64,000 nt of DNA from Armatimonadota bacterium (GTDB lineage Bacteria; Armatimonadota; Fimbriimonadia; Fimbriimonadales; Fimbriimonadaceae): positions 469,238-533,237 of the forward strand of contig JAFDWQ010000003.1 in NCBI GenBank assembly GCA_018268395.1, in the 5' to 3' direction. The translations under genes and the position numbers were made by a program. Within the stretch, counting starts at the first letter, position 1. Every line of letters begins with the position of its first letter. Positions 26 through 36,296 of the stretch are shown here, piece after piece. Under the pieces are notes generated by a model. The model worked only from the letters and a program-made list of their open reading frames with translations, did no database searches and was not told the DNA's origin.

Positions 26-628
26 ATGCCGACCAAACGTCAGCAGATCCTCGAACTTGCCAAGCAGAGAGGCGCCATTCGGCCACGCGACCTCCGACAG
101 ATCGGTGTGAGTCCAAGCTACCTCGGCCACCTCATGTCCAGAGGTGAGCTCATCAGATCGAGCAGGGGCCTCTACACACTGGCGACATTCGAACTCACCC
201 AAGATCACACTCTCGTCGAAGCCGTCCGGACTCAGCCCAAGGGCGTCGTCTGTCTACTTTCGGCCCTCGCTTTCCATCACGTCGGCACACAGCTGCCACA
301 TCAGGTTTGGCTAGCCGTCCCCTTTGGATCGTGGATCGCCAAGCCGAGCGGAATTCCTATCAGAACCGTCGTCATGCGCCACGACGGCTACTTTCCAGGA
401 ATCGAGAGACACCAAATCGAAGGGGTCGAGGTGCCAGTCTATTCGGTCGCAAAGACCATTGCAGACTGTTTCAAGTTCAGGCAAACAATTGGAATTGGTG
501 TGGCCATCGAAGCCCTCCGCGAAGCCCTGCGCGATCGCCGTTGTACTCGGGACGAACTGCACAGGCACGCCAAGGCACTCCGGGTGGAACGCGTCATGCG
601 TCCATATCTTGAGGCACTTTCAGCATGA
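26..628 (+). CDS. AbiEi-family antitoxin of a type IV toxin-antitoxin pair
   Basis: 200 aa. The N-terminal ~50 residues form a winged-helix-like segment (RPRDLRQIGVSPSYLGHLMSR) followed by RSSRGLYTLA, the usual start of AbiEi antitoxins. The middle carries the family's CLLSALAFHH block and the C-terminal part the VYSVAKTIADCFKFR block. In this family the N-terminal domain represses the operon and the C-terminal domain counteracts the toxin kinase/nucleotidyltransferase. The ATG is preceded by a purine-rich AGAGGA. The stop overlaps the toxin start by 4 bases (ATGA), so the two are translationally coupled. Assignment rests on motif recognition and on the neighbouring toxin. Confidence 0.85.
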   Translation: MPTKRQQILELAKQRGAIRPRDLRQIGVSPSYLGHLMSRGELIRSSRGLYTLATFELTQDHTLVEAVRTQPKGVVCLLSALAFHHVGTQLPHQVWLAVPFGSWIAKPSGIPIRTVVMRHDGYFPGIERHQIEGVEVPVYSVAKTIADCFKFRQTIGIGVAIEALREALRDRRCTRDELHRHAKALRVERVMRPYLEALSA

Positions 629-1497
629 GCAAGCCCGTCACCAACGTCGGAGAGTCCCTTCGTGCACGCCTGTTGAACACAGCGCGTGCACGCAATGAGA
701 CATTCGATCTGGTCTTAACCAGGTTCGCCCTGGAACGATTCCTCTATCGCCTCTCCAACTCTGAGCACAGGTCAAGTTTGATCCTGAAGGGCGCCATGCT
801 CTTTGAGCTCTGGAGTGGCACCCCGCACCGTGCCACCAGAGACCTCGACCTTTTGGCGAAAAGTATCGACAGCGATCAGATAGCGCGGATCCTTCGAGAG
901 ATCTGCCCGCCCGAAGTCGATCCCCCTGACGGCCTGCACTTTGATCTAGCCAATCTTAAAATCGCCGAGATAAGGGAGGCGGACCGGTACGGAGGCATCC
1001 GGGCTAAATTTGTGGCACGACTGACCACTGCGATCATTCCCATTCAAATTGACTTCGGCATTGGTGACATCGTGACCCCGGAACCTGAGGAAACCGACTA
1101 TCCAACCTTGCTCGACATGCCTGCACCTCGGCTCCTCGCATATCCTCGCGCCACTGTCATCGCCGAGAAGCTTGAAGCCGTAGTCGATCTTGGGTTCGCC
1201 AATAGCCGATTGAAGGATTTTTTCGACCTTTGGTTCTTTGCGACGACTTTTAACGATGATCTGGAGAGCTTAGCGATTGCCGTCCGTCGCACCTTCGAAC
1301 GCCGTGGCCAAACGGTGCCAGACTCGGTGCCCAACGGACTCAGCGACGAGTTCGCTGAGTATGCAGGAAAGCACCAGCAATGGGCAGCTTTTGTGGGCGG
1401 TTTAGGCACGGAAGCCCCGAGTCTGGCTGACGTGATCGCAGAAATTCGACCGTGGGCATCGAAAATCTTCGCACTTGCACGAAACACTTCAGCATAA
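625..1497 (+). CDS. AbiEii/AbiGii-family nucleotidyltransferase toxin
   Basis: 290 aa, starting inside the antitoxin stop codon. Residues ~50-75 read LILKGAMLFELW...RATRDLDLL. This is the AbiEii version of the nucleotidyltransferase signature: a Gly-containing loop, then an Arg-Thr/Ala-x-D-x-D metal-binding strand. The later block ATVIAEKLEAVVDLG...NSRLKDFFDLW is typical of the family (K, E and KDFFDLW). Family members inactivate translation by modifying tRNA or cause reversible growth arrest after phage infection; the substrate here is unknown. Length is normal and the reading frame is intact. Confidence 0.87.
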   Translation: MSKPVTNVGESLRARLLNTARARNETFDLVLTRFALERFLYRLSNSEHRSSLILKGAMLFELWSGTPHRATRDLDLLAKSIDSDQIARILREICPPEVDPPDGLHFDLANLKIAEIREADRYGGIRAKFVARLTTAIIPIQIDFGIGDIVTPEPEETDYPTLLDMPAPRLLAYPRATVIAEKLEAVVDLGFANSRLKDFFDLWFFATTFNDDLESLAIAVRRTFERRGQTVPDSVPNGLSDEFAEYAGKHQQWAAFVGGLGTEAPSLADVIAEIRPWASKIFALARNTSA

Positions 1498-7927: not shown

Positions 7928-9619
7928 TCAGAGCACAGTCAGCAGGCTGACGTGCATCAGCGGCACGAACACCCACTCTGACCCGCATGTGACCGGATCA
8001 AAGCAAGCCTCACGGTACCCCAGCATGTCGCCTTCGACACAGATGTCTTTGTCTGGATACTTCGCTGCGATCGTCGACGCCAAGGCGTCTTGATCGAAAT
8101 TTGATTGAACCTTTTCCGCGCGCGCCGTGGCAGCAGGTCTCAGGAGCGGTTCCTCGTCCGATGGCCAAGTGCCGAGCTGTTTAGGCGAGCGCGGCGTCCC
8201 GTAGGTCGGGTTGGGCAAGAGCCGTCCTTCGAATGCCTGGTGCGACCTAACGTCCAGTTTCGAGATCCAGGCGGGGCGATAGCCCCTGACAAAGGCGATC
8301 AAGTCGTTTTGCGGTAGAGTGCGCACCTCGTCGGGTTTCAGCAGGTCACGCTGGACGAAGGACAACATCCCTGCTGTAGGCAGCATCGCGCCGTGCTGGC
8401 CGATGAACTTGCTCACATACTCGGCGGTGTGCTGATCGTTCACGTTGAAGAACACATGAGCGCCGGCACCGGCGAAGATGCCGTGATAGCCTGGATCCGG
8501 CCAAAGCTTCTGCATCTGGCTCAAATACTGAAAGATCAGTGCGAACCTTCCGCCGGTACCCTCTATAAAAGCCATCGATTGCTCGACGACCGCGAGGCGA
8601 CCGACCGCAGCAGCATACTCATCGAGCATGAAGAGCACGGGCGGCACGTTTTCCACGAACGGTGCTCGGAGCGTCGCCACGATACAACAGCTTAGTACCA
8701 GCCGTATCCAGGGAGAATAGAGCTCCAACTTCTCGAACGGGCAAACGATGAAGACCGTTGTGCTACCCTGCTTCAGATCGTAAGGGTGAAAGTCTGAAGT
8801 GCGTAAGTGGTCGTGCCATACCGGGCTGTTGAGCCAGGCCAAGGAACGAAGCGCCAAGGAGAGAAAAGAGGCCCTTTCTTTCAGGTTGACCTTGTCCCAC
8901 CAGGTTCCCGTCTTCGAAATGACATCGCGCAATACAGGGTCAGGATGCTCGTTGAGAGTCAGGGCCGAAAAGATCTCGTCCAGCGATCCTTCAAGCCCAC
9001 CGCCGATCCGGGCCAACATGATCAGGTTCCGGTCCTTGCGCGGGACGAAGAAGAGCAGGTAGGTCAGCAGTCCACAAAGGATCGCTCGGGCACCGTCGCG
9101 CCAATGCTGCTCCTTCTCCCCTTCCTTCGGTACCAACAGCGCGTCCGCGACCATGCCCACATCGTCCAACACTTCAGCGTAATTGGCATTGTCGAAGACC
9201 GACAGAGGGTTGAAGCTGTGGATCGGGACCGGATCGTCCATACCGTAGCTCTGCAGCTTCTGCGTCGGGTCCAGAACGACGACGTTCTGATTCATTGCGC
9301 CGGATCGGTGGCGGTGCGCCACCGCGGCGTTCTCCCCTTTCGGATCCGTGACCACCATGCTGCCCTGATAGCCTGCGAGATTGGCCTGAACGAATCCAAC
9401 CCCCTTGCCCGTACGCGGAGGGGCAAGCACAATCACATGCCCTTGCCGGTTCAGGCAACAGAGCCAGCCGTCTTGGTTTTGGCCCAAGATGATGCTCCCG
9501 GGACGATAATCGTAGAGATGTAGTTCCTCGGCCTCCTCCGCCGTCATCCAGCGCGCGGAGCCGTGCGCATGCGCATTGAGCTCTCCGCCGCCACCCGTCA
9601 ATCCCGGAAAATGTGCCAT
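7928..9619 (-). CDS. traG: TraG/VirD4-family coupling ATPase lacking the N-terminal membrane anchor
   Basis: 563 aa. Residues 20-27 (GSARWMTA) match the point in TraG proteins just after the transmembrane domain, so the usual two N-terminal helices are absent. Walker A is APPRTGKG (66-73) and Walker B is VLFMLDEY (328-335). Between and after them are the family blocks VVTDPKGE (89-96), FNPLSVFD, a QYLSQMQKLW sensor region and the C-terminal TLPQNDLIAFVRGY. Coupling proteins hand the relaxase-DNA complex to a type IV secretion channel; no channel genes are in the window. It is followed upstream by traD (6-bp gap) and faces away from oriT, as in Ti-type transfer regions. Confidence 0.9.
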   Translation of the reverse strand: MAHFPGLTGGGGELNAHAHGSARWMTAEEAEELHLYDYRPGSIILGQNQDGWLCCLNRQGHVIVLAPPRTGKGVGFVQANLAGYQGSMVVTDPKGENAAVAHRHRSGAMNQNVVVLDPTQKLQSYGMDDPVPIHSFNPLSVFDNANYAEVLDDVGMVADALLVPKEGEKEQHWRDGARAILCGLLTYLLFFVPRKDRNLIMLARIGGGLEGSLDEIFSALTLNEHPDPVLRDVISKTGTWWDKVNLKERASFLSLALRSLAWLNSPVWHDHLRTSDFHPYDLKQGSTTVFIVCPFEKLELYSPWIRLVLSCCIVATLRAPFVENVPPVLFMLDEYAAAVGRLAVVEQSMAFIEGTGGRFALIFQYLSQMQKLWPDPGYHGIFAGAGAHVFFNVNDQHTAEYVSKFIGQHGAMLPTAGMLSFVQRDLLKPDEVRTLPQNDLIAFVRGYRPAWISKLDVRSHQAFEGRLLPNPTYGTPRSPKQLGTWPSDEEPLLRPAATARAEKVQSNFDQDALASTIAAKYPDKDICVEGDMLGYREACFDPVTCGSEWVFVPLMHVSLLTVL

Positions 9620-10043: not shown

Positions 10044-10904
10044 ATGCAAGGATACTATCATCTGTCTGTCTCAGTGATCGGAAGAGGACAAGGCCGTTCG
10101 GCAGTCGCTTGCGCAGCCTATCGGTCAGGTACAAGGATAAAGGACGAGCGATATGGCAGGACGCACGACTATTCCTTTCGGACAGGCGTGCAGCTGAGCG
10201 GCGTGTCAGCGCCGCAGAACGCCCCTTCTTGGACCCGTAACCGGTCAGATCTTTGGAACCAACTTGAAGCCTTCGAAAAGCGCAAGGATGCGCAGCTCGC
10301 ACGGGAGTTTGTGCTCGGCCTGCCACACCTACTCAGTCTTGAGCAGCAAGCGGAAGTCCTGGAACGGTTCATCCGATCCGAATTCCTCGCACGTGGTTTG
10401 GTAGCCGATTGGGCGATCCACGACGCGAACCAGTCCGGAGACGTGCGCAATGTTCATGCACACGTGATGGTGACCATGCGCACTTTGTCGCCTGCAGGCT
10501 TCGATCCCATCAAGGAACGGGAGTTGAACACGCCGTTACAGCTGAATGCATGGCGGGCGAACTGGGCCGAAGCGGTGAATCAGGCCTTTCGAGAGCATGG
10601 CGTACTCGACGCAGAAGGTCGACTCTTAGAGGTTGATCACCGGAGCTACGAAGACCAGGGTCTCGCACTAGAGCCGACGTACCATATGGGTGTTCATGCC
10701 ACGGCGATGGAGCGGCGAGGCAAGCTCACGGAACTCGGTGAGCGCAACCGGTCAATCCTTAAACGCAATGAGATGCAGCCCGACTGCGCCGATAGCAGGC
10801 GGCACGGCGCGGTCCGTGGTTTCCTGTCTAGCACGAGGGCCAAGCAAAGGGAAGCACACGATCGTGAGCGGAGCGACCAGTATAACAGCGAGATGGAACC
10901 TTAG
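10044..10904 (+). CDS. MobA/MobL-family (MobQ) relaxase, short form
   Basis: 286 aa. The N-terminus reads YYHLSVSVIGRGQGRSAVACAAYRSG, with the probable DNA-attacking tyrosine at Tyr26. The metal-binding histidines are His127 in AIHDAN and His138/His140 in NVHAHVMVT. The relaxase nicks oriT and covalently carries the transferred strand. The protein ends soon after the nuclease domain, unlike ~1000-residue TraA proteins with a helicase part, so it is either a naturally short Mob protein or a truncated TraA. It starts 31 bp from oriT. Confidence 0.88.
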   Translation: MQGYYHLSVSVIGRGQGRSAVACAAYRSGTRIKDERYGRTHDYSFRTGVQLSGVSAPQNAPSWTRNRSDLWNQLEAFEKRKDAQLAREFVLGLPHLLSLEQQAEVLERFIRSEFLARGLVADWAIHDANQSGDVRNVHAHVMVTMRTLSPAGFDPIKERELNTPLQLNAWRANWAEAVNQAFREHGVLDAEGRLLEVDHRSYEDQGLALEPTYHMGVHATAMERRGKLTELGERNRSILKRNEMQPDCADSRRHGAVRGFLSSTRAKQREAHDRERSDQYNSEMEP

Positions 10905-12867: not shown

Positions 12868-13556
12868 CCGCTGCTCCAGCCTGAGAAGTCGGCGACAAAT
12901 CGTGCGGCCGCCGTGGCGAGTTCAGTCGCCATGAGAATCCGATACCCGGCTATCTCAGGCTGCGAGATTGTAGGGGAGAGCAATAAGATCTCGACTATCT
13001 CATGCCGACTTCACTCTAGTGATTTCGGCCGATTCTTCGGTCGCAAACGTCACGAGTCGGACGGCGCAAGAACGCTCCGCTTCGTGTCGGAGAACGACGG
13101 TGGCCTGACCATGGGTGACCTCCTTTTAGGTGGCCGGGCTGAGAGGGGACGGCTTGTGCCCGTTTGCAGCCCGGTTCCCAAGGAACTTGCCTTCGTCGCT
13201 GGAGCTGCGCGGAGGGGTCTCACGGCCATGGACGTGGTTCTACCCTGCTTCGTGCATCGGGCGTCCTTTTTTAACGTTCCTTGCGGAACCAGGGCAACGC
13301 CGCACGAACCATCGGCCTTGTCCTGGCCACCCAAGCGAGTAGTCATCCTTGGTCTTTCCACCCGTCGCTCTTCGCCTGGCCACCCGCTGGCCAGGGCAAT
13401 GGTCTGTCAATGTAGCTTAGGTAGGAAATGCGGCGTCAATCGTGCCACACTAAAGGAGCAGGTCCGTTGCCACCGCCGGACCAACAGTACTTTGCCGGTC
13501 CAATTCTGTTTGTCGCAACCTTCGTTAGCGCACATCATCAATACAGGAGCGCTCTG
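12868..13556. other. 689-bp gap with a repeat family B copy
   Basis: A long plus-strand open frame crosses this stretch but has no domain and covers a dispersed repeat. Positions ~13276-13365 match the repeats near 31.9 and 34.3 kb (GCGGAACCAGG, then CGGCCTTGTCCTGGCCACCC). Treated as non-coding. Confidence 0.55.
13276..13365. repeat. Dispersed intergenic repeat family B, copy 1
   Basis: GCGGAACCAGGGCAACGCCG and CGGCCTTGTCCTGGCCACCC correspond to parts of the copies at 31.9 and 34.3 kb; the 5' module with GAGAACCTTGGG is absent. Confidence 0.65.
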
Positions 13557-19238: not shown

Positions 19239-22200
19239 TCAGTCCTTTTCCATCAGGTAGTCGCTACCGTCCCAGATCATGGTGGTCAGTTTGGCCCCGA
19301 GCCCACTTTGGACCAGCGACCTCCGAAGGCCGTCGGCCGAATAGGTGTAGGTCGAGAACGGTGGAGCGACGTTGGCGAGCTCTTCAATGGTCAGTCTGTC
19401 CTCGTCGTCGTACGTCCAGTTCGTCACCTGTCCGTTTCTATCCTCGCGGGTCTGGTTTCCGTTGTCGTCATATGTGTACGTGACCAACGTCGGGCCGTCC
19501 TGCAGGGTCGTCACCCTGTTGGCCACATCGAAGCTGTAGGTCATCGGCTGCAGGCCCTGGTGCCACTTCAGCGTCAAGTTGCCGCGCGTGTCGTATCCGA
19601 AGGTGGCCGTACCGCCCGAAACGGACTGTCCCGTCAAACGGTACGCGTCGTCCATCGTGTAGTTGGTCGCAATACCGTCTTTTGCCGAAGCGGTCTTATT
19701 GCCTGCTCCGTCCCACGTGTCGACGATGGTCATGACGAAGGCACCGGCGGGGTTCTTTTCGGTCAGAGTCGTCAACCGTGAAGCCGCGTCGTACTCCCAG
19801 CGCCGCTGCCAGCCTTGATCCATCAGAAGGGTGGTCAGCCTCGAAGCCGCATCGTACTGCTGCGTAAAGATCCGTCCGTTCGGGTTACGGATTTCCGATA
19901 TCCTGTTCAATGCATCGAAGGCGTACGTCATGACCCCGCCGTCCGGATCGATGAGGGTCGTGCGGTTACCCACGGCATCATATTTCCGTTGGAGCCTGTA
20001 ACCGACCTGGGTCTCATCGATCACCTCGCTTCGCTTCGAGTATGCGAAAGTCGTCGCGCCGGTCCAATCGACAAGGGTCGTGCGTCGCGACAACGCGTCG
20101 TACTGCATCGTGGCCCGTTGTCCGTTCGCATAGTGGAGCGAGACCGTACGGTCCAGGGCGTCATAAGTGAGCGATTTGATCCTTCCCCTGGCGTTCATGA
20201 CCGTGACGGGCCGGCCCTTACGGTCGTACGAGGTCGTCGTCGTCAAGCCGAGCTGATTGCCTAACGTATGGCGCCATCCTTCGGGCGTGTAGCCGATCGT
20301 AGTGCGCGCGCCGGCCGGATCGATGATAGCGGTCTGTTGACCGGCGAGGTCGTATTCGTAAGACGTCGTGTTGCCGTTCGCGTCCGTCACCGCGGACAGA
20401 CGGTTCGAGGACGTACCATAGGCGTTCGTCGTAATCTTGCCGTTCGCGTCACAGACGGTGACGACATTGCTGACCTGGTCGAAGGAGTACGTCGCCCGGT
20501 TTCCGAGCGGATCGATCGAGGACCGAACACGTCCGACGGCATCGAAGACCGTCTGGGAAAGGCAGCCTGTCTGATCGGTGCTTTGAACTTGCCGGTTGCG
20601 TGCGTCGTAGCCGAACGTCGTGGTGCCGTTCAACGCATCCGTGACGGTCGTGACGTTGTTGCGCGTGTCGTATTCGGTAGACGTGCTATGCCCCAGCGCG
20701 TCGGTCACTGCGGCCCGACGGCCCGCCGCATCGAACGCGTAGACCATCGTGAAGCCGAGCTGGTCCTGCACCGTGGTGAGCCGACTGGCGGCGTCGTACT
20801 CGTAGACCATCGTGAACCCTAACGCGTCGGTCACCGTTGTCACGTTCCCGAGGACGTCGTACTCGTACGTGGTCCTATCACCGAGAGCGTTAATGACCAA
20901 GGTGCGGTTCCCATACCGGCCGTAGGCGTAGGTCGTGCGGTTCCCTAGTGGATCGACTTCCGCCGTCAACATGCATTGGTCGTACACGTAGTTCCACACC
21001 GGTGCGTCCGCACCGACCGTATAGGGTCCGATTCTCGCGGTCACGTTGTCAGAAAGGTCATATTGGAAACAGGTCACCCGCCCGAGAGGATCCGTGGTCT
21101 GCAGCAGGCGGTTCAATGGATCGTACAGGTTCGTAACGACCCCACCGTCGCTGTGTTGAATGCTGACAACGTTGCCCAGAGAGTCATAGTTCAAGGTCGT
21201 GACCAGGCCTCTTGCGTCCTTCATGGTCCGCATCAAGCCCTGTGCAGTGTACGAATATGTGGTCCGCTGACCTAACGGATCGATCGCTGCCAAAAGCCTC
21301 CGTTTGTTCGCCAGCGTTGAGACATCGGAGTAGACGGACGTCCAGACGTTATTGAGGGCGTCGACGACGGTCGTTAAGTTCAGGAACGCGTCGTACTTGT
21401 ACGTTGTGATGTTGCCTAGAGCGTCCGTTTCCGACAGGACCAGTCCCACGCTGTTGTTCGTGAACGCCTTGTGCACGCCCATCGGCCTATTCGAAGACGC
21501 GAGCCAGCCGTTTCCATCGTACGTCGATGTCTCGACGACTCCATCTGGCGACGTCACCGTGGACACGCGACCGTCGGCGTCGAAGACATACGTGGTCTTT
21601 CCTCCCAGTGGCGACGTGATGACTGTCCGCTTCTGCGCCTCGTTGTACTCGTAGCTCCAGAAAGGAGATTCTGGCGTAGTACCCAAGATCATGCTCACGA
21701 CGCGCCTGTCTGCATTGAACACATAGGACGTGACGAAGCCTCTTGGATCCTCTATGCTGTTCAGAATGGACACCGTGTCGTTCGTTACCGTCGTGTAACC
21801 GTAGCGGGTCACACAGCCCGACGGGACGACCATGGTGGTGAGGTTCCGGTTCGAGTCGTATTGGAACGTCCAGTGCCGACCGCCCCAATCGTCGATGCCG
21901 CTCAGAAGCGAGGTCGGAGATCCGGTGGAATAAGCGAAACTCAGTAGCGCTCCGCCGGGGACAGCGATGCTGTCCAGGTACGGGAATCCTCCGATCGCCG
22001 AATAGCTGTACGTATGCCTGTTGCCGTAAGTGTCCTCCACCCTTGACAGACTATAAGTGGTCGTGGCTACCTTCGGAGCGTAGACCGCCTTTATGCCGTC
22101 CGGGTAGTGCTCGGTGAACTCGTCAGAACCTGAACTGTACGTGAGCGTGGTGTACGACATCTGGTTCGCAGCCGAGTAGTTTCCGGCGTCCAACTCGAAT

Positions 22201-22529
22201 ACAGATACGTCCTGATTGCCCCGCACCACTTTCGCATAAGTCGTACCGTTGTTCGTGTAGCTGACGATGGATTGGAACACGTTGGCCGACCGTGCCTTTC
22301 CCACCGGGCCGTCCAAATCGCTGGCAGAGTCGTAATAGAGGCTCACATCGACCCCGAACCCCCGGGCCTTCAGCCTCAATTCGGGGTCGACGACTAGCCT
22401 TCCCGTTGCGGGATCAGGCGTAGGCCGATAAGGATGCGCTCTTTCACGTGCGGTCGTACCGACATAGGCCGGCAAACCTGTCTCTGGGTTCCACGTCTCT
22501 GGGCCGAACTCTCGTGCCATGGCTCTCAT
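19239..22529 (-). CDS. RHS/YD-repeat body protein
   Basis: 1096 aa from ATG 22529, 2 bp after the stop of the preceding mini-protein gene. The open frame extends upstream to 22667, but that part overlaps the mini-protein. The N-terminal ~75 residues are unique (GPETWNPETGLPAYVG; a PELRLKARGFGVDVSLYYDS block). The rest is made of dozens of YD repeats (YDxxGNxTxxTDxxG type), the shell that encapsulates polymorphic toxins. It ends at SDYLMEKD with TGA, just where the core/tip should continue, so body and tip are in different frames. No signal peptide is visible; export may use a different route or partner. Confidence 0.85.
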   Translation of the reverse strand: MRAMAREFGPETWNPETGLPAYVGTTARERAHPYRPTPDPATGRLVVDPELRLKARGFGVDVSLYYDSASDLDGPVGKARSANVFQSIVSYTNNGTTYAKVVRGNQDVSVFELDAGNYSAANQMSYTTLTYSSGSDEFTEHYPDGIKAVYAPKVATTTYSLSRVEDTYGNRHTYSYSAIGGFPYLDSIAVPGGALLSFAYSTGSPTSLLSGIDDWGGRHWTFQYDSNRNLTTMVVPSGCVTRYGYTTVTNDTVSILNSIEDPRGFVTSYVFNADRRVVSMILGTTPESPFWSYEYNEAQKRTVITSPLGGKTTYVFDADGRVSTVTSPDGVVETSTYDGNGWLASSNRPMGVHKAFTNNSVGLVLSETDALGNITTYKYDAFLNLTTVVDALNNVWTSVYSDVSTLANKRRLLAAIDPLGQRTTYSYTAQGLMRTMKDARGLVTTLNYDSLGNVVSIQHSDGGVVTNLYDPLNRLLQTTDPLGRVTCFQYDLSDNVTARIGPYTVGADAPVWNYVYDQCMLTAEVDPLGNRTTYAYGRYGNRTLVINALGDRTTYEYDVLGNVTTVTDALGFTMVYEYDAASRLTTVQDQLGFTMVYAFDAAGRRAAVTDALGHSTSTEYDTRNNVTTVTDALNGTTTFGYDARNRQVQSTDQTGCLSQTVFDAVGRVRSSIDPLGNRATYSFDQVSNVVTVCDANGKITTNAYGTSSNRLSAVTDANGNTTSYEYDLAGQQTAIIDPAGARTTIGYTPEGWRHTLGNQLGLTTTTSYDRKGRPVTVMNARGRIKSLTYDALDRTVSLHYANGQRATMQYDALSRRTTLVDWTGATTFAYSKRSEVIDETQVGYRLQRKYDAVGNRTTLIDPDGGVMTYAFDALNRISEIRNPNGRIFTQQYDAASRLTTLLMDQGWQRRWEYDAASRLTTLTEKNPAGAFVMTIVDTWDGAGNKTASAKDGIATNYTMDDAYRLTGQSVSGGTATFGYDTRGNLTLKWHQGLQPMTYSFDVANRVTTLQDGPTLVTYTYDDNGNQTREDRNGQVTNWTYDDEDRLTIEELANVAPPFSTYTYSADGLRRSLVQSGLGAKLTTMIWDGSDYLMEKD

Positions 22530-22531
22530 CC

Positions 22532-22831
22532 TTAGTCTAACGGCGCGCACGGGTTGGTAGGGCCAGGCGAGTTCGAGGTCGGGAGAGCCGGCACTTGTGG
22601 GCACGATGCACTTGGAAGGCGGGGGCTGTTGAAAGTCGCGCAAGTTCCTGATGCCCCGTTTGCACACGATCCGCAGTCACCAGGTTGGCCGTTTCCAGGC
22701 ACTCCGCCATTGCCGCCGTTCCCTCCTCCCGGGCCGCCATACCCTCCTCCCGACCCGCCCGGGCCGCCACCCCCGCCGAACTCAGGAGGCCATTGGAAAC
22801 AGGACCAACAGAACCAGGGGGGCATCGCCAT
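22532..22831 (-). CDS. Gly-rich, Cys-rich mini-protein
   Basis: 99 aa from ATG 22831, behind AGAGGG and 10 bp after the NifU-like stop. Three parts are visible: an aromatic/Cys start (PPWFCWSCFQWPPEF), a ~35-residue Gly-rich stretch (PGGSGGGYGGPGGGNGGNGG), and a Cys/Pro-rich end (DCGSCANGASGTC, then PSASCPQVP and NPCAPLD). No signal peptide. Four-gene operon context: glycosyltransferase, NifU-like protein, this gene, RHS body. Function unknown; it might be a structural or N-terminal partner of the RHS protein. Confidence 0.65.
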   Translation of the reverse strand: MAMPPWFCWSCFQWPPEFGGGGGPGGSGGGYGGPGGGNGGNGGVPGNGQPGDCGSCANGASGTCATFNSPRLPSASCPQVPALPTSNSPGPTNPCAPLD

Positions 22832-27105: not shown

Positions 27106-28096
27106 TATCGAAAGTTTACGAGTACATGTTGTGCATTAAGGCGATCCAAAGCTAGCGATAGGGTCTCTGCCGTCAGGATGTTTGAAGGCGGAGCATGCCT
27201 GACCATTTGGGACGTCCCTTTCTCCTCGAGCTGCAAGAGCTATCCGAGCCGCAAGTCGGACATTCGGATCATCAATGCAGACTCGACGCTTTCCCATAGT
27301 GTGACTTCATCGCGATCTAAATGCAGTCAGTCAAAAGCTGAGGCAGTGCCACAAATCCAATAGTGTGCGCCAAGAAGGGGCAAGGACTGGTTAGATAATA
27401 TGCGAAAGCGAGGCAACTCCTCAAGGCGGGTTCATTAACTGCCATGATTTTGACGTAAGAGTCCCTTAAGAATTCATCAGCATAGACGAGGTAGTTGCAG
27501 AGACTATTCCACGTCCACCAGACGCATTCGTAAGAATTCTACTGGAAACCCAACTTAAGGTGCAGATCCAATTGGAATGTCTAGATGAAGAAGGCGAATT
27601 TGGCGCTCGCCGCCGCCTCAACGAACCGTCCGGAACGGATACCTTCCTGCCCCGGACCTCACGCCTATCGGACGCCTGGCCGGATGCGCGAGCGATTGCG
27701 CACGATCATCGCCGCTTCGCAACTGCCCAGCTTCGCTCTCTACGAATGACAGGCGGCTTTCCGGTGCCGGTTCCTTCCATCCTCGCCTCTCGGTCGAGGC
27801 GACACTTTCGCTGCCCAAAAGGCCGACGTTTAGAAAGAGCAAGCAATCTGCCCTAGATTCGTCACCCACCCATCCGCAGGATCAATTTGAAATTCGATTC
27901 CGCTTTGGTTTGGTCCACGTGGCACGAAGAACCATGGGCATTCGCCGTGACCTCATCGATGCTTCAGCTCTGCGAGTACCAAGAGAGCCGTCGAAAACAG
28001 CTTGAACTGCGACCAATCACCTGAGGACTCGTAGCTACTCAAACATATCGTTCCCATACGGTGTCCACGTAGAAACATACATGGTAACATCTCATA
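27106..28096. other. 991-bp gene-poor stretch with a repeat family A copy
   Basis: Only short frames without coding character. Positions ~27630-27813 carry the dispersed repeat shared with ~30895-31080. The rest shows nothing recognisable. Confidence 0.55.
27630..27813. repeat. Dispersed intergenic repeat family A, copy 1
   Basis: Shares GACGCCTGGC-GGATG, CGAGCGATTGCGCACGATCA, CAACTGCCC-GCTTCGCTCT, GACAGGCGGC and GGTTCCTTCCATCCTC with ~30895-31080, roughly 80-85% identical by eye. On the minus strand both copies could encode ASTERRGWKEP...SEAGQLRSGDDRAQS, but substitutions are not clearly codon-patterned. Confidence 0.75.
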
Positions 28097-28534
28097 GTGC
28101 TGAACGAAACGGAACTGAAAAGCGTGGGCTCATGGCTTCATGAGCACTACGAGTATGACGAAACTGGACGAGACGCCGTACCGCTGGATGACGACGTTCG
28201 TGTTGGGATAGAGGAATTCATTGCAGAACTACCCAAATGTGGTGACATGCAATCTCTTGAAAGGGATGTCGACAGCTTTGTTTCAAGCGAAGAAGTTACG
28301 CCCCTCGTGCAGAAAGCAGTAGCAGCGCCAGACTCTGACAAGCAGGATGCGACACTGGCAACAATGACTGTTGCCGCCGCCCTCTGGTACATTGCTCAGA
28401 CCCTCCTGAAGATTGATTATGAGACAGATTCTCTCACGAAAAGCCGGAAGCTAAAAGTTCGTGTGCGAAAAGGCAAAGCATCTCCTGAATCACTCGGCAA
28501 TTGTCTCAAGTGGATACTGAACCTCAAACAATGA
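28097..28534 (+). CDS. Hypothetical protein
   Basis: 145 aa, GTG start. Acidic N-terminal half (EELKSVGSWLHEHYEYDETG-like composition), a central hydrophobic helix (TMTVAAALWYIAQTLL) that may be a buried or membrane helix, and a basic C-terminus (KSRKLKVRVRKGK). It converges on and overlaps by 11 bp the end of the decayed CHAT gene. No family recognised. Confidence 0.5.
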   Translation: MLNETELKSVGSWLHEHYEYDETGRDAVPLDDDVRVGIEEFIAELPKCGDMQSLERDVDSFVSSEEVTPLVQKAVAAPDSDKQDATLATMTVAAALWYIAQTLLKIDYETDSLTKSRKLKVRVRKGKASPESLGNCLKWILNLKQ

Positions 28535-29829
28535 GTTCAGCTCGAGTATCTCGCTTTTTATCGTCAATGCTCCCGCCCAGCTGAATCGGATGCCCCTTCG
28601 GACTGAAGTATACATTGTACAAGTTGTCATGAGCCAACTGCAGTTTATCGTCAGTTGCAGACACGACCATGGCAAGTGCTTCCTAAAAGGTATTACCCTC
28701 AACCCAAGCAATAGGCGCGATGGCCTCAAGCATCCTAAGGCTTGCCGATAGTGAGACCGCTGTCATCGCTGCGAGGACAATGCTTGCCCCAATTCTAAGA
28801 AAGGCTGTTGTAAGATCGATTGCATGTTTGTCTTCCATCCCTGCGTTCGCCTCCGGCTCCACAGACAAACAGAATTACCGCTGGTGAGTTGGTCAGCCCG
28901 TTTTCACCCGTATCATTGATCTTGCGCGCGATGTCCAATCGTGCATCGACCACATGATTGTGATGCATCTCAAATCCAGAACTCTGTTGATCAGAGCCAA
29001 GATATGTGCCATGGCTAGCAACTATGACTGCATTGCAGTCAGAGTGCGGAGAGTTGCTGAGTGCCTTCAGAAAAGATGACTTGCGAAATAATGGCACGAC
29101 AGTAACTTCGTGATCTGCGGAATCTTGTGCTACGTCCATTAGTTTCGCTGCAACAGCTGACGAGGAAAGAGCAGGCTTCTGAGTGCCCGTTGTACTGCCA
29201 ACACTAACAATTACCTTACCGACGATTGACTTACTTTCTGCTCGGCCAAACACACGGGGGTCGTCATCTCTAACAGGCTCCATGTTCTTTATGTAAGCGA
29301 TTGGACGAACAAGGCCCAGAAGTAATTGCGCACAGTCTGTTGCCGTCTCGATGTTTACGTCGCTTCGAGGAATGTCACTTGCCATTAAGAGGTGCCAGGG
29401 TATTGGTACGCCCCGCCTGTGTACATTGAGTGCATGTGAAAGGGAGTAATGAGTGGTAGGACGCGCCCATGAGAAGTATGTTGCTCGCAAATCTGGTATT
29501 CTACGGTCTCGAAGAACGGACAAAAAGGTATTTGTAAGCGCAATTGAACTGTGTATTGCTTCGGATAGTTTTAAAAGGCAGTTCTGATGCAGTTCGTGAC
29601 CCCGAAGCAACTGGCCATACATGTCCGCGTACTCTGACCATGCTTTGAGCGCGAAGTCAGAGTCGTCCAGCAACTGTCTCAGGTTGTCTGCATTGATATC
29701 TTCGAAGTTTGAAAGATGCTCGCCCGGAACAAAGGTGTCACCAAAAATCGTAAATGAACAGCTACCATTGAGAGAACGGTTAAATGTAACCGCAGCGTTC
29801 GCACTTATATGTTGCATGCACAGTCCCAT
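28524..29829 (-). pseudogene. CHAT-domain protease, frameshift and in-frame amber codon
   Basis: An intact 344-residue reading frame from ATG 29829 carries the CHAT catalytic features: His273 in VIVASHGTYLG and Cys323 in VILFVCGAGG. Just after the Cys the frame is lost at ~28845. In the +1 frame the family continuation is clear (DLTTAFLRIGASIVLAAMTAVS, as in the GL-FL-AGA-V--SLW block). It runs through TAG at ~28686 (NTF*EALAMVV) to TGA at 28524-28526 (NLYNVYFSPKG, PIQLGGS). CHAT proteases are caspase relatives used in defence. The N-terminal ~190 residues are helical and unrecognised. Confidence 0.7.
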
Positions 29830-29872
29830 GACAGGGGCAATCTGGGACTAAATGCCTAGCTCAGGTGGCCAA

Positions 29873-30523
29873 CTACAGGTGCTCCGAGTTTTGTAATCTT
29901 ACCTGCATTTGACGGAACCGCTCAGACGAGGGGTCAAATGAAATGGCAATGTCCTCGCGCTTGACACATTCCCCATCAAAAGCGTCAATGAGCTGGAAGC
30001 TAACCGTGACCGCGTCGCCTGTGGAAGGCGTAACTTGGGGACGAAGGATGGTAGCATCGCGCTCTATTTCGGAGTTGTATCCGACAGAGGTTACAAAGAC
30101 GACGGGCTGCGCGATGTCTGAGAAGTCCGAGAAAAGAGAAGTGACATCAACGCTCACATGCAGTTGAGCGCCCTTCAATTCCACCTTGGCGACATCCGTG
30201 TCAGCCTTCATTACAGGTTGAGACGACGGAGCGCCGAAAAAGGCCGCTTCGCTGGCGTCCCTTCCAATCCAATTGCTCCCCCTGCTGACCTTCATGGGCT
30301 TCGGACTCCGCTCCTTGCCTGGCCGCTGGGCACGAGTGACTTGTTCCCTGGGCTCCGCAGTCCAGAGCTCCGTAGGAATACTGGAGTCCTGTTCAATGTC
30401 AAGACGGCGCCCCGGAGCCAACGGCCTGGTGATCCGAGTTCCGAGACCTTGCTTCAAGGCACGTGCCTGAATTTTTCGGACGCCGGGACTTTGACCTCGA
30501 ATCGCTGAATATGACTCCAGCAC
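29873..30523 (-). CDS. All-beta-looking protein upstream of the CHAT gene, in frame with the S16-like ORF
   Basis: 216 aa from GTG 30523. The first ~80 residues are basic and low in structure and include the S16-type ending (GVLES). Residues ~105-215 alternate in a beta-sandwich-like pattern (KVELKGAQLHVSVDV, QPVVFVTSVGY, DAVTVSFQLIDAF). It lies 43 bp upstream of the CHAT gene, same strand. The frame is continuous with the S16-like ORF apart from one TAG codon, so this may be the distal part of a 294-codon gene. No family recognised. Confidence 0.45.
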   Translation of the reverse strand: MLESYSAIRGQSPGVRKIQARALKQGLGTRITRPLAPGRRLDIEQDSSIPTELWTAEPREQVTRAQRPGKERSPKPMKVSRGSNWIGRDASEAAFFGAPSSQPVMKADTDVAKVELKGAQLHVSVDVTSLFSDFSDIAQPVVFVTSVGYNSEIERDATILRPQVTPSTGDAVTVSFQLIDAFDGECVKREDIAISFDPSSERFRQMQVRLQNSEHL

Positions 30524-30565
30524 CCCATCTGTCCAAAGTAATCTCAGCGTGGTGGCGTCATTCGG

Positions 30566-30757
30566 CTATGCTCCAACAAGCAACCAATATAGGGCCCGTT
30601 CAGATTCTAGCGTGAGAAATTGTTTCTTTGAAACGGGGTCGTAGGTGCCAATACACTCGATTGTTCGTCCTTTCTGCCTCTTGCGCTCATCTGCCACGAC
30701 AATTCGGTAGAAGGGACGGTGCTTTCGGCCCTGTCTTTCTAGCCTGATCTTTACCAC
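30566..30757 (-). pseudogene. rpsP: Ribosomal protein S16-like domain cut by an amber codon
   Basis: GTG start, 63 codons reading VKIRLERQGRKHRPFYRIVV, ADERKRQKGRTIECIGTYDP, then ERALYWLLVGA and TAG. S16 proteins normally continue VGAQP-D-V--LL---G. After the TAG the same frame reads PNDATTLRLLWTDGVLE, so the stop replaces a likely CAG. No ffh, rimM, trmD or KH-domain gene is nearby, so this is an extra S16 copy in an accessory setting. It is followed in frame by the beta-rich segment and then the CHAT protease. Confidence 0.75.
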
Positions 30758-30894
30758 TCTTTACTACATACCTCTGCAGCAGTCAGGGGGCTTGCGCCTC
30801 GCTCACTGCCAGCAAGAAAATTGGGAGCACTACGATAGCACAAATCCGTCTTAGTATGGGGACGGTTCAGAGTAGTCGCCGCCGCCCCGACGAA

Positions 30895-31080
30895 CGTCAG
30901 GAGGGATATATTCCCGCCCCGGAATTCACGTCAGTCTGACGCCTGGCAGGATGCACGAGCGATTGCGCACGATCATCGCCGCTGCGCAACTGCCCCGCTT
31001 CGCTCTTTACGGCTGACAGGCGGCCTTCTGGGCCCGGTTCCTTCCATCCTCTCCTCTCGGTTGAGGCGACATCTTCGCTG
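30895..31080. repeat. Dispersed intergenic repeat family A, copy 2
   Basis: Collinear with ~27630-27813 over about 185 bp, including CGAGCGATTGCGCACGATCA and GGTTCCTTCCATCCTC. A shorter, more diverged copy is at ~1892-1990. Confidence 0.75.
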
Positions 31081-31253: not shown

Positions 31254-31308
31254 GAGCAGGAATTTCGTAAACAGCAGGTCACCAGTTCGAATCTGGTCAT
31301 CGGCTCCA
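31254..31308 (+). pseudogene. tRNA-Thr(CGT) remnant
   Basis: GAGCAGGAATTTCGTAAACAGCAG is followed by a perfect T-arm and 3' acceptor strand (CACCAG-TTCGAAT-CTGGT, CATCGGC-T-CCA). The TTCGTAA loop fits a threonine CGT anticodon, but the anticodon stem does not pair (GGAAT against ACAGC). The D-arm and 5' acceptor strand are unrecognisable upstream. The expected 5' strand, GCCGATG, is typical of tRNA-Thr. Confidence 0.65.
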
Positions 31309-31309
31309 G
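31275..31309 (+). repeat. attL: Left 35-bp direct repeat (tRNA 3' end), att-like
   Basis: Identical over 35 bp to 36262-36296. It spans the T-arm and CCA end of a tRNA-Thr gene, the commonest core for site-specific integration. No integrase gene lies between the copies. Confidence 0.6.
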
Positions 31310-31816
31310 AGTTTTGAACTTAAGTAGTTAGAGTTCCAAACCAAATCAATCCGTTGAATTCGATTTTGACAGTGTAGTTGACAGTTCTCGGCGTAGTCTT
31401 CTGCTCCTCTGAGGGGTCTTGGCAGGCGAGCCCGACAGGTCACTCGGCGGCAGGTAGGTCTTCAAATTCAGTAAGGTGGTCGGCTCGATCCCTGGCTCGC
31501 CTTCAGGCTCCTCGGTCACCTGGCGAGGCCGACACCGATGCCCCCGCCCCTGCCCCTTCTCGCGAGGGGATGCGGCCCCGCAAATTTTGAGAAGCTGGAA
31601 AACTTCATTAGGGAGCGGCCGTCCGTGGGCCTGGAGTCGGTGCGGACGACCGAATTTGTCGACCCCCCACCGGGAGCAGTCAGGGGCAAGGCCGTTCGTA
31701 CGATCCTCAAGTCCGCCTCCAAGAGACGTCCGAACTTTCCGGCACCCCCGGGGGCAGGGGCAAAAGTGGGACGGGGGTCGATTTGCAGTAAGCCTCTCAG
31801 ATTTTTCTGCCCTTTC

Positions 31817-31985
31817 CGAGAACCTTGGGCCGGACGTAGGGCGAGGAAGAGTGCGTAACCGGCTGATATCGATCGAGCGCACACACGCAGAAGCCCATGT
31901 TCCTTAAGAACCATGACAAGGTCGTACGAACCGTCGGCCTTGTCCTGGCCGCCCAAGCGAGACCACCCTTAGTCCTGCCACCCGC
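31817..31985. repeat. Dispersed intergenic repeat family B, copy 2
   Basis: Shares GAGAACCTTGGGCCGGACGT, AGGGCGAGGAAGAG, ATCGAGCGCACAC, GGCCTTGTCCTGGCC and CTTAGT-CTGCCACCCGCC with 34229-34401. Confidence 0.75.
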
Positions 31986-32023
31986 CAAGGTGGGGCTCGA
32001 TCCCCGTCTGCCTTGAAGGTCCG

Positions 32024-32384: not shown

Positions 32385-32849
32385 CTAGTGAAGTTCAATC
32401 AACAGAACGCTGTCATCCTTGATCCGCCTAGCGAGATCCTTACCGCGGTAATTAATCATTGTCGAAGACCCCGATTTCTCGACTGTGCATGAAAACTCTC
32501 CGTACTGTCCGCCTAAATACTCGCGAGTCCAAATACTGCCTTCAGGTGCTACCGTGAAGCGCTGGCCGCTCTCTCTAAGCGTGAGCGTTTGCGGCGTACT
32601 TGCATAGTTAACGAAAAGCACGTTATGCACCTTCGAGCAACCGCATGCCGCGAGGCATGCCGCAGAAACAACAACAATCCGAGCGAAACTGAATGCTATG
32701 CGGGCGTGTTTGACTATAGCTTGACGGTTTATACACTCACCTAAGCAGAGGCACCACCGGGATAATCGGGTATGCTGGCCCTGACATCGGATCACGGTAT
32801 GGATAACCAGCAGCATTGTATGCATCGATTTCCATTGGCGCATTGTCAT
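32385..32849 (-). CDS. Lipoprotein, candidate immunity protein, start uncertain
   Basis: The open frame has 154 codons from ATG 32849, but the first ~40 lie inside the RHS gene. A convincing signal peptide and lipobox lie in the middle (FARIVVVSAACLAAC, Cys at residue 69), followed by a ~85-residue domain (NVLFVNYASTPQTLTLRESG, EFSCTVEKSG). No ATG, GTG or TTG lies at the right distance before the signal peptide; GTG 32795 is the nearest. Position directly after an RHS toxin suggests a periplasmic immunity protein. Start and expression remain open. Confidence 0.5.
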   Translation of the reverse strand: MTMRQWKSMHTMLLVIHTVIRCQGQHTRLSRWCLCLGECINRQAIVKHARIAFSFARIVVVSAACLAACGCSKVHNVLFVNYASTPQTLTLRESGQRFTVAPEGSIWTREYLGGQYGEFSCTVEKSGSSTMINYRGKDLARRIKDDSVLLIELH

Positions 32850-34050
32850 GCGACAAAGTGCTGACGTACCCTATGATCGTCATGGGCAAATAGGCAGCCC
32901 CGTAGCAGTTCTCTTGCTCGATATGCCAGTGCTCGTGCTTACGCCATCTTGAACTCTTAAGGTACAATTCATAGTCCTCTTCGTCGTGGATTCTGGTGTA
33001 TCCACTTATCGTCATGGCGTTGCCCTTAAGGTTAATCCGTGAGAACAGGTCAGCGTCGTGATCAACGCCTACATATACCATGTATCCTTCGGGATCTCTC
33101 CGCCATGGATCGATCCAAATCCACTCGATGTCCCAGGACTTGCCTCTTCCAGGTTTACCTTGCAAGACCCAGCGCAATCCCTCCGGATCCGCGGCCCCTA
33201 TCGGGTTCCCATCGCAGTACCCGTACAGGTTCGCCCCGCCCTCGTAGCCGATCGGGTCGCGGTTCAGCCACCGCCCCTGACCCGGATCCACATACCGCTG
33301 CCCGCAGAGGTAGAGGCCCGTCTCCGAGTCGTAGTAGTAGCCCCAGCGCCCGTTCCAGCGCCAGCAGTCTGCACCGATGTACTGCGGCACGTTCACGTAT
33401 TGCCCGTAGCACTCGTACATCGAGGAGTTGTCGAGCGTGCCGTCTGCCTTTAGGCGGTGCACCACCGAGCCTTGCTGGTCGAACTGGTAATAGCGCCAAG
33501 AAGACCCGCCCCATCGTGCCACGAGCCCGTCGGGGGCGAAGACGTTGATGGCGGTGACGGTGCCGCTCGCGTCCGTCTCCAACACCGGCTTGCCGCCGTC
33601 GTAATAGAAGTACTTGGCCGTCGAAGTCGGCGTCCCGCCGCCCTGTGGGACGCTGGTCGCGCTGTCCTTCCACGCCCTGAGGCCGTCCGACCGGGTGCCG
33701 TACCAGCGGTACGCGCCTGTGCTTGAAACCGTCTTTAGGCGCGCCTCCTCGTCCCAGGTCATCGTTGCCCCGGCATAGGCCGTCGGGCTGCCGTTGCCGT
33801 CGAAGGCGAAGCCCGTCGCGCTGCGCTGGTTGTCAGCGTTGAAAATCAGCGCGTCGTCACGGTACGTCGTCGGATTGCCTGCGCCGTTTTGCGAGCCATC
33901 TTCTCGTACGGCCTGCGCGCTAAGGGCAGGCGCCTCCGAGGAGGCGCCGCCCGCATCGGACGAGGCGTCCGCTCCAGTCGCTCCGAGACAGAGCGCTGCG
34001 GCGAGGGCCGTTAAGCACGCGGTCAGGGCGCGGAATCGTCTCGCGGCCAC
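32737..34050 (-). CDS. Secreted mini-RHS protein with HExxH metallopeptidase-like tip
   Basis: 437 aa, GTG start. Signal peptide 1-30 (ALTACLTALAAALCLGATGADA). RHS repeats and core occupy ~60-290: NADNQRSATGFAFDGNGSP, YQFDQQGSVVHRLKADG, YYYDSETGLYLCGQRYVDPGQGRW, RDPIGYEGG, NLYGYCDGNP, AADPEGL. The tip (~295-437) has KHEHWHIEQENCYGAAYLP. HEHWH is an HExxH zinc motif, and the Gln and G--YLP that follow recur in RHS-linked peptidase tips (HEYGH--QS---G--YLP). The probable role is a zinc peptidase toxin delivered across the envelope. It is complete, unlike the other tips. Confidence 0.75.
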   Translation of the reverse strand: MAARRFRALTACLTALAAALCLGATGADASSDAGGASSEAPALSAQAVREDGSQNGAGNPTTYRDDALIFNADNQRSATGFAFDGNGSPTAYAGATMTWDEEARLKTVSSTGAYRWYGTRSDGLRAWKDSATSVPQGGGTPTSTAKYFYYDGGKPVLETDASGTVTAINVFAPDGLVARWGGSSWRYYQFDQQGSVVHRLKADGTLDNSSMYECYGQYVNVPQYIGADCWRWNGRWGYYYDSETGLYLCGQRYVDPGQGRWLNRDPIGYEGGANLYGYCDGNPIGAADPEGLRWVLQGKPGRGKSWDIEWIWIDPWRRDPEGYMVYVGVDHDADLFSRINLKGNAMTISGYTRIHDEEDYELYLKSSRWRKHEHWHIEQENCYGAAYLPMTIIGYVSTLSHDNAPMEIDAYNAAGYPYRDPMSGPAYPIIPVVPLLR

Positions 34051-34480
34051 GAGCGTGGTTCTACCACCTTCTCACCCTCCTCTCGCGTGCGATGCGACAG
34101 ACCCGTGAGAGTCCGTGCCGGACACGACGAAGGGCTCGCCAGTGGCGGCTGTCGAGAGCCGGTCCGAAGAGGCGAGCCCGTCATCGTGCCACCCGTCGAG
34201 AGGCCACCCATCGTCGGGCCACCCAGCCGAGAACCTTGGGCCGGACGTAGGGCGAGGAAGAGCGTGTATCCGGCCGATATCTATCGAGCGCACACGCCTG
34301 GGAGCCCTTATTCCTGCGGAACCAGGACAAAGCCGCACGATCATCGCCCTTGTCCTGGCCACCCAAGCGAGAGGTCAGCCTTAGTTCTGCCATCCGCCGT
34401 GTCAGAGCGCGCGAGAAGCAGGCCACCAGGATGAGGCACCCTTCGTCTTGCTATGCATCGCAGTATATTCAGCCGCCCGG
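34051..34480. other. 430-bp gap with repeat family B copy
   Basis: No gene seen. Holds the family B modules at ~34113-34222 and 34229-34401, between the mini-RHS gene and the Imm-like gene. Confidence 0.55.
34229..34401. repeat. Dispersed intergenic repeat family B, copy 3
   Basis: Collinear with 31817-31985 over ~170 bp. The part from GCGGAACCAGG to CCACCCAAGCGAG also matches 13287-13338. Confidence 0.75.
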
Positions 34481-36247: not shown

Positions 36248-36261
36248 GTAGATATAAAGAA

Positions 36262-36296
36262 CAGGTCACCAGTTCGAATCTGGTCATCGGCTCCAG
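36262..36296 (+). repeat. attR: Right 35-bp direct repeat (tRNA 3' end), att-like
   Basis: Identical to 31275-31309. Here no anticodon or D-arm remains upstream: the sequence before it belongs to the truncated RHS gene. The pair brackets 4987 bp, start to start. Confidence 0.6.

Follow-up and report, generated by a model that had tools for sequence, protein, structure and literature searches.

The locus described here lies in a window of 64,000 nt (the whole stretch of DNA that was analysed) and raises the question of what an extra domain resembling ribosomal protein S16 is doing next to the gene for a putative CHAT-type protease, and whether, as the original prediction proposed, the S16-derived domain may be the target or released effector of that protease. 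The cassette that holds both has the look of a defence module that once worked and has not been described before; the positions of its parts and of the surrounding features are collected in Table 1.

Table 1. Features of the cassette and of the element that carries it. Positions are those of the window, or of the contig where prefixed C3 (C3:458452 is window position -10785)
Feature	Position	Strand	Remarks
bS16-like domain	30506..30757	-	GTG start; TAG 30566-30568, at a usual Gln, breaks the domain
Arg/Pro/Ser-rich linker, 99 residues	30209..30505	-	in frame with S16; no family
Beta-rich domain, 111 aa	29873..30208	-	stop TAG 29873-29875
CHAT-like gene, first part	28849..29829	-	N-terminal half is helical; ASHG (His motif) 29008-29019; CGAGG (Cys motif) 28849-28863
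CHAT-like gene, continuation after +1 frameshift	28524..28853	-	internal TAG 28683-28685; TGA 28524-28526
145-aa ORF, intact, possible hydrophobic helix	28097..28534	+	converges on CHAT and overlaps it by 11 bp
Direct repeat D1, left copy	27607..27813	+	
Direct repeat D1, right copy	30876..31080	+	85% identical to left copy
Direct repeat D1, third copy	C3:462873-463011		after CBASS operon
Complete tRNA-Thr(CGT)	C3:456274-456348		
Tyrosine integrase	C3:456468-457619		directly after tRNA-Thr
Type III CBASS operon	C3:458452-462826 (window -10785 to -6411)		after integrase
AbiEi/AbiEii pair	26..1497	+	same element
T4SS coupling protein	7928-9619	-	
MobA/MobL relaxase	10044-10904	+	
Repeat of tRNA-Thr(CGT) 3' end	31254..31309	+	att-like element end
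Second repeat of tRNA-Thr 3' end	36255..36296	+	possible outer att site

The 63 residues ahead of the first TAG score 79.4 bits against PF00886, and a profile search of the genome returns the domain as a second bS16 copy at 81.2 bits (cut-off 27), inside the range of the other copies in the phylum. TIGR00002 is matched at 9e-24, and 22 of the 24 near-invariant S16 columns (those with at least 90% conservation) are kept. An extra S16-like domain is therefore present as predicted, and it does lack the usual ribosomal neighbours, the canonical rpsP being found intact at C3:687434, where ffh precedes it and KH/rimM follows. The conserved columns together with the normal profile score argue that the island copy was under constraint until recently. 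It shares with bS16 its domain, profile score and conserved positions, but lies outside the ffh-rpsP-rimM context, is fused to the linker and beta domain, and is interrupted by a TAG that falls inside the domain and at no gene junction; most S16 proteins have Gln at this position, and the island copy reads GA*PND where the canonical copy reads GAQPTE. In an S16 tree the island copy sits on a long branch and is placed outside the family; grouping it with its own genus gives a p-AU of 0.0585, and grouping with the family (p-AU 0.313) is not rejected. A recent duplication of the resident rpsP is disfavoured by the long branch and the own-genus value. The ribosomal protein helps to fold the 5' domain of 16S rRNA. 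E. coli S16 has in addition been reported to nick DNA, as a DNase, and to bind cruciforms (PMC10931766, citing Oberto 1996).

Beyond the TAG the S16 frame stays open for 230 codons, through the linker and the beta-rich domain to the next stop, which upholds the claim that the two parts share one frame apart from a single TAG; just 1 of 2000 shuffles of the post-TAG stretch is equally stop-free. The G+C content by codon position is coding-like in the beta part (0.60/0.38/0.60) and has no periodicity in the linker (0.62/0.59/0.61), as either a disordered linker or former non-coding DNA would show. Structure prediction, which had been suggested as a check on the beta-rich part, does yield six strands and a C-terminal helix (AlphaFold), but at low confidence; a fold comparison of models made without homologues recovers S16 only, the models being too poor for use. 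In profile scans the beta domain, whose model is too poor for its fold to be compared, matched no gasdermin, and neither this domain nor the linker nor the 145-aa ORF matched EACC1.

The ATG of the CHAT-like gene at 29829 lies 43 bp past the end of the S16-beta frame, on the same strand. Its unshifted frame stops at 28795, and this ORF (28795-29829) matched no family in profile searches. A +1 shift near 28850, directly after VILFVCGAGG, opens a frame that reads EANAGMEDKHAIDLTTAFLRIGASIVLAAMTAVSLSASLRML, typical of the C-terminal part of CHAT domains, and runs on to the TGA at 28524-28526, precisely where the interval given in the original prediction begins. When the frameshift is bridged the protein matches PF12770 at E=1.3e-4 and 22.0 bits, against a curated cut-off of 24, and it is on this match that the CHAT label depends; the spacing given in the original prediction holds, but its CHAT label is supported only after read-through of the frameshift. 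In an alignment with local CHAT proteins VIVASHG falls on the catalytic His and VILFVCGAG on the Cys, in the arrangement expected of the family, with His-Gly behind one strand and Cys behind the next. By hhalign against a local CHAT profile P is 0.011, with 2 of 200 shuffles scoring higher, and the whole-sequence score against this profile is at most modestly above shuffles; the model has a pLDDT of 35, at which the order of strands and helices is no more than compatible with a caspase-haemoglobinase fold. We accept the product, from its sequence, as a divergent, putative CHAT-type protease just below formal membership of the family. The whole cassette (30757-28524, minus strand), made up of S16, linker, beta domain and CHAT-like gene, carries three lesions, namely the TAG in S16, the +1 frameshift after the Cys motif, and the TAG in the CHAT continuation. 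Decay through a TAG and a frameshift had been recognized correctly, but the second TAG was overlooked.

The cassette is cargo of a mobilisable defence island integrated in a tRNA-Thr gene, and its place at the distal end of this element follows from the repeats of the tRNA-Thr 3' end, the integrase, the mobility genes, CBASS and AbiE. The type III CBASS operon has the order TRIP13, two HORMA proteins, CD-NTase and SAVED/PD-DExK nuclease, and ArdC is also encoded in the element. Such a setting fits a role in defence. The D1 repeats bracket the S16-beta-CHAT genes together with the convergent 145-aa ORF, and the sole third copy in the genome is the one that follows the CBASS operon; as a structured or attC-like element D1 was rejected, since one copy folds moderately (z -2.3) and the others do not. 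The 145-aa ORF is a possible partner in the cassette; profile scans gave it no family, and no relative was found in plasmids or viral contigs.

Several other features of the region may be recorded. A 510-aa protein (C3:465213-467114, minus strand) has a weak caspase match (PF00656, E=0.0037), and a 121-aa ORF directly before its gene, without a Pfam match, looks EACC1-like. A second dispersed repeat family (window 13276-13364, 31816-31986 and 34227-34398) lies near Rhs-core genes and recurs on several of the genome's contigs. Possible polymorphic toxin cassettes are represented by an Rhs-repeat protein of 1142 aa (window 19239-22667) and by a short protein that joins an Rhs core to a C-terminal part of its own (window 32737-34050, minus strand). 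In the sister species G001 the same tRNA-Thr site is used by a different element, with a repeat of the tRNA-Thr 3' end present twice, 15.8 kb apart (locus L120, 1640-1696 and 17426-17482), an ORF resembling an integrase gene at one end, and apparent RND efflux genes inside.

The search for relatives yielded this one copy. Two S16 copies occur in one of 291 genomes of the phylum, which is the present genome, and no convincing relative of the beta domain or the CHAT gene was found among the 291; weak CHAT or beta matches at five loci (L027, L029, L033, L034 and L036) were read and discarded as frame accidents in unrelated sequence. The cassette DNA has no match in the three other genomes of the genus. 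A scan of 84,980 species with exact 8-residue patterns gave 34 loci for S16-beta, essentially the S16 part alone, with no CHAT domain within about 5 kb of them, and no locus for the CHAT pattern; these patterns are the reach outside the phylum, so that distant relatives, which may escape an exact match of this length, may exist there. Plasmid and phage records gave matches to the S16 part only, and viral contigs no match to the cassette. Among 101 relatives the closest S16-CHAT distance in the matches listed is about 17 kb (G017, where the S16 is the only copy). An S16-CHAT neighbourhood, whose absence from other genomes the original prediction had itself set as a ground for refutation, was not found elsewhere, other phyla having been reached by the exact patterns alone, and an S16-beta fusion was met nowhere else in the 291 genomes, plasmids and viral contigs or, by pattern, in the 84,980 species. 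The cassette is a single damaged copy, the only one found, and the S16-CHAT association has no comparative support.

Our preferred reading, which we hold tentatively and as somewhat short of probable, is that of a recently inactivated cargo cassette whose intact form was a two-component, abortive-infection-type module. The S16-beta protein would be the partner or substrate of the CHAT protease, either holding it inactive or being cut by it; through its S16 domain this partner would be tethered to 16S rRNA, to the 30S subunit or else to some structured nucleic acid, and its beta domain would bind the protease or a trigger. Infection that disturbs translation or nucleic acid would then release or activate the protease, and active CHAT would act as executioner, cleaving its partner and possibly host proteins. 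Consistent with such a module are the conserved S16 positions, the common strand, the 43 bp spacing and the long frame open beyond the TAG, the CHAT profile match, with His and Cys motifs where they should be once the frameshift is read through, the company of defence and mobility genes in the stretch from tRNA-Thr to the repeat of its 3' end, and the D1 repeats on either side of the cassette, of which a further copy lies behind the CBASS operon; against it stand the single instance, a CHAT score under the Pfam cut-off, a whole-sequence score against the local CHAT profile that is hardly distinct from shuffles, the lack of codon periodicity in the linker and the low-confidence models. The original interpretation is partly supported, by the S16 paralogue, the CHAT-like protease, the decay and, as a new observation, the defence-island setting; the proposed functional link between S16 and CHAT is plausible, with S16 as a hypothetical target or released effector. 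The more specific proposal of an undescribed, mobile-element-borne guard of the 30S subunit, in which the S16 domain would anchor to or sense the state of translation or nucleic acid and CHAT would act on it, we regard as doubtful.

The single instance and the featureless linker make an accidental joining of S16 nearly as likely as the module. The element would have carried a beta-CHAT defence pair, upstream of which an S16 fragment without any role became joined in frame; the cassette's uniqueness among the 291 genomes, a fusion seen nowhere else, the aperiodic linker and adjoining repeats that suit recombination in a repeat-rich island all agree with this. It is a serious rival, which we hold as somewhat less likely than the module. 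The frame that is open across the junction counts against it, and so does the S16 domain, which has its own start and near-complete conservation yet is well diverged from the resident copy on its long branch, features that suggest that it was probably long selected after leaving other S16 lineages. It is improbable that the S16 was a spare ribosomal protein of the mobile element, for example replacing or competing with the resident S16, and was unrelated to the adjoining protease: it is a complete domain by itself and keeps nearly all conserved positions, but it runs in frame into the beta domain, lies in a gene that ends 43 bp from CHAT, and accompanies a resident rpsP that is intact.

TAG ends 18 of 54 long ORFs in the same island, so that this genome uses it as a normal stop codon and the two TAGs are true lesions; reassignment of TAG to Gln was rejected on the same count. 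That the genes are intact, the lesions being errors of assembly or base calling or the TAG codons being read through, is improbable: a single one-base shift is typical of long-read error and one change turns either TAG into CAG, but three independent lesions fall within 2.2 kb, two being substitutions, a TAG stop is in common use, and no suppressor tRNA was seen in the stretches scanned. The cassette is a recently inactivated pseudogene, and a working module is not expected in this genome.

A damaged singleton, the cassette serves chiefly as a starting point for searches. Should intact relatives exist, a CHAT protease would have in it, as far as found, its first partner based on S16, and a proteolytic switch with which bacteria guard their small ribosomal subunit would be suggested; the literature searched contained no paper combining CHAT, ribosomal protein S16 and caspase-like. 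Ribosomal-protein domains have been re-used in predicted defence proteins before, as S1-like OB folds and L12/ClpS insertions in conflict systems (PMC7159879), but the fold here differs, and S16 is absent from the main text of that study (Kaur et al., 2020). The same paper describes caspase-activated conflict systems, in which a caspase-fold protease may act on a neighbouring protein or be held back by it, among them two-gene EACC1-caspase systems. The cassette resembles these in having a small upstream gene before a putative caspase-fold protein, but the gene directly 5' of its protease is S16-beta and not a single-helix membrane EACC1; what we read as an EACC1-like/caspase-like pair lies in the same element. 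CHAT or caspase-fold proteases in defence operons can also act on a neighbouring protein or be restrained by one, as in Craspase/Csx29 (PMC9729208, PMC10028731), the type III-E system of gRAMP, TPR-CHAT/Csx29 and a protein substrate. No gRAMP or Cas gene was matched by PADLOC in the cassette ORFs, nor any Cas among the element proteins scanned, and the partner here is an S16-beta fusion beside a CHAT protein whose N-terminal half is not identified as TPR, whereas what the cassette shares with Craspase is a CHAT protease beside a partner gene in a defence setting.
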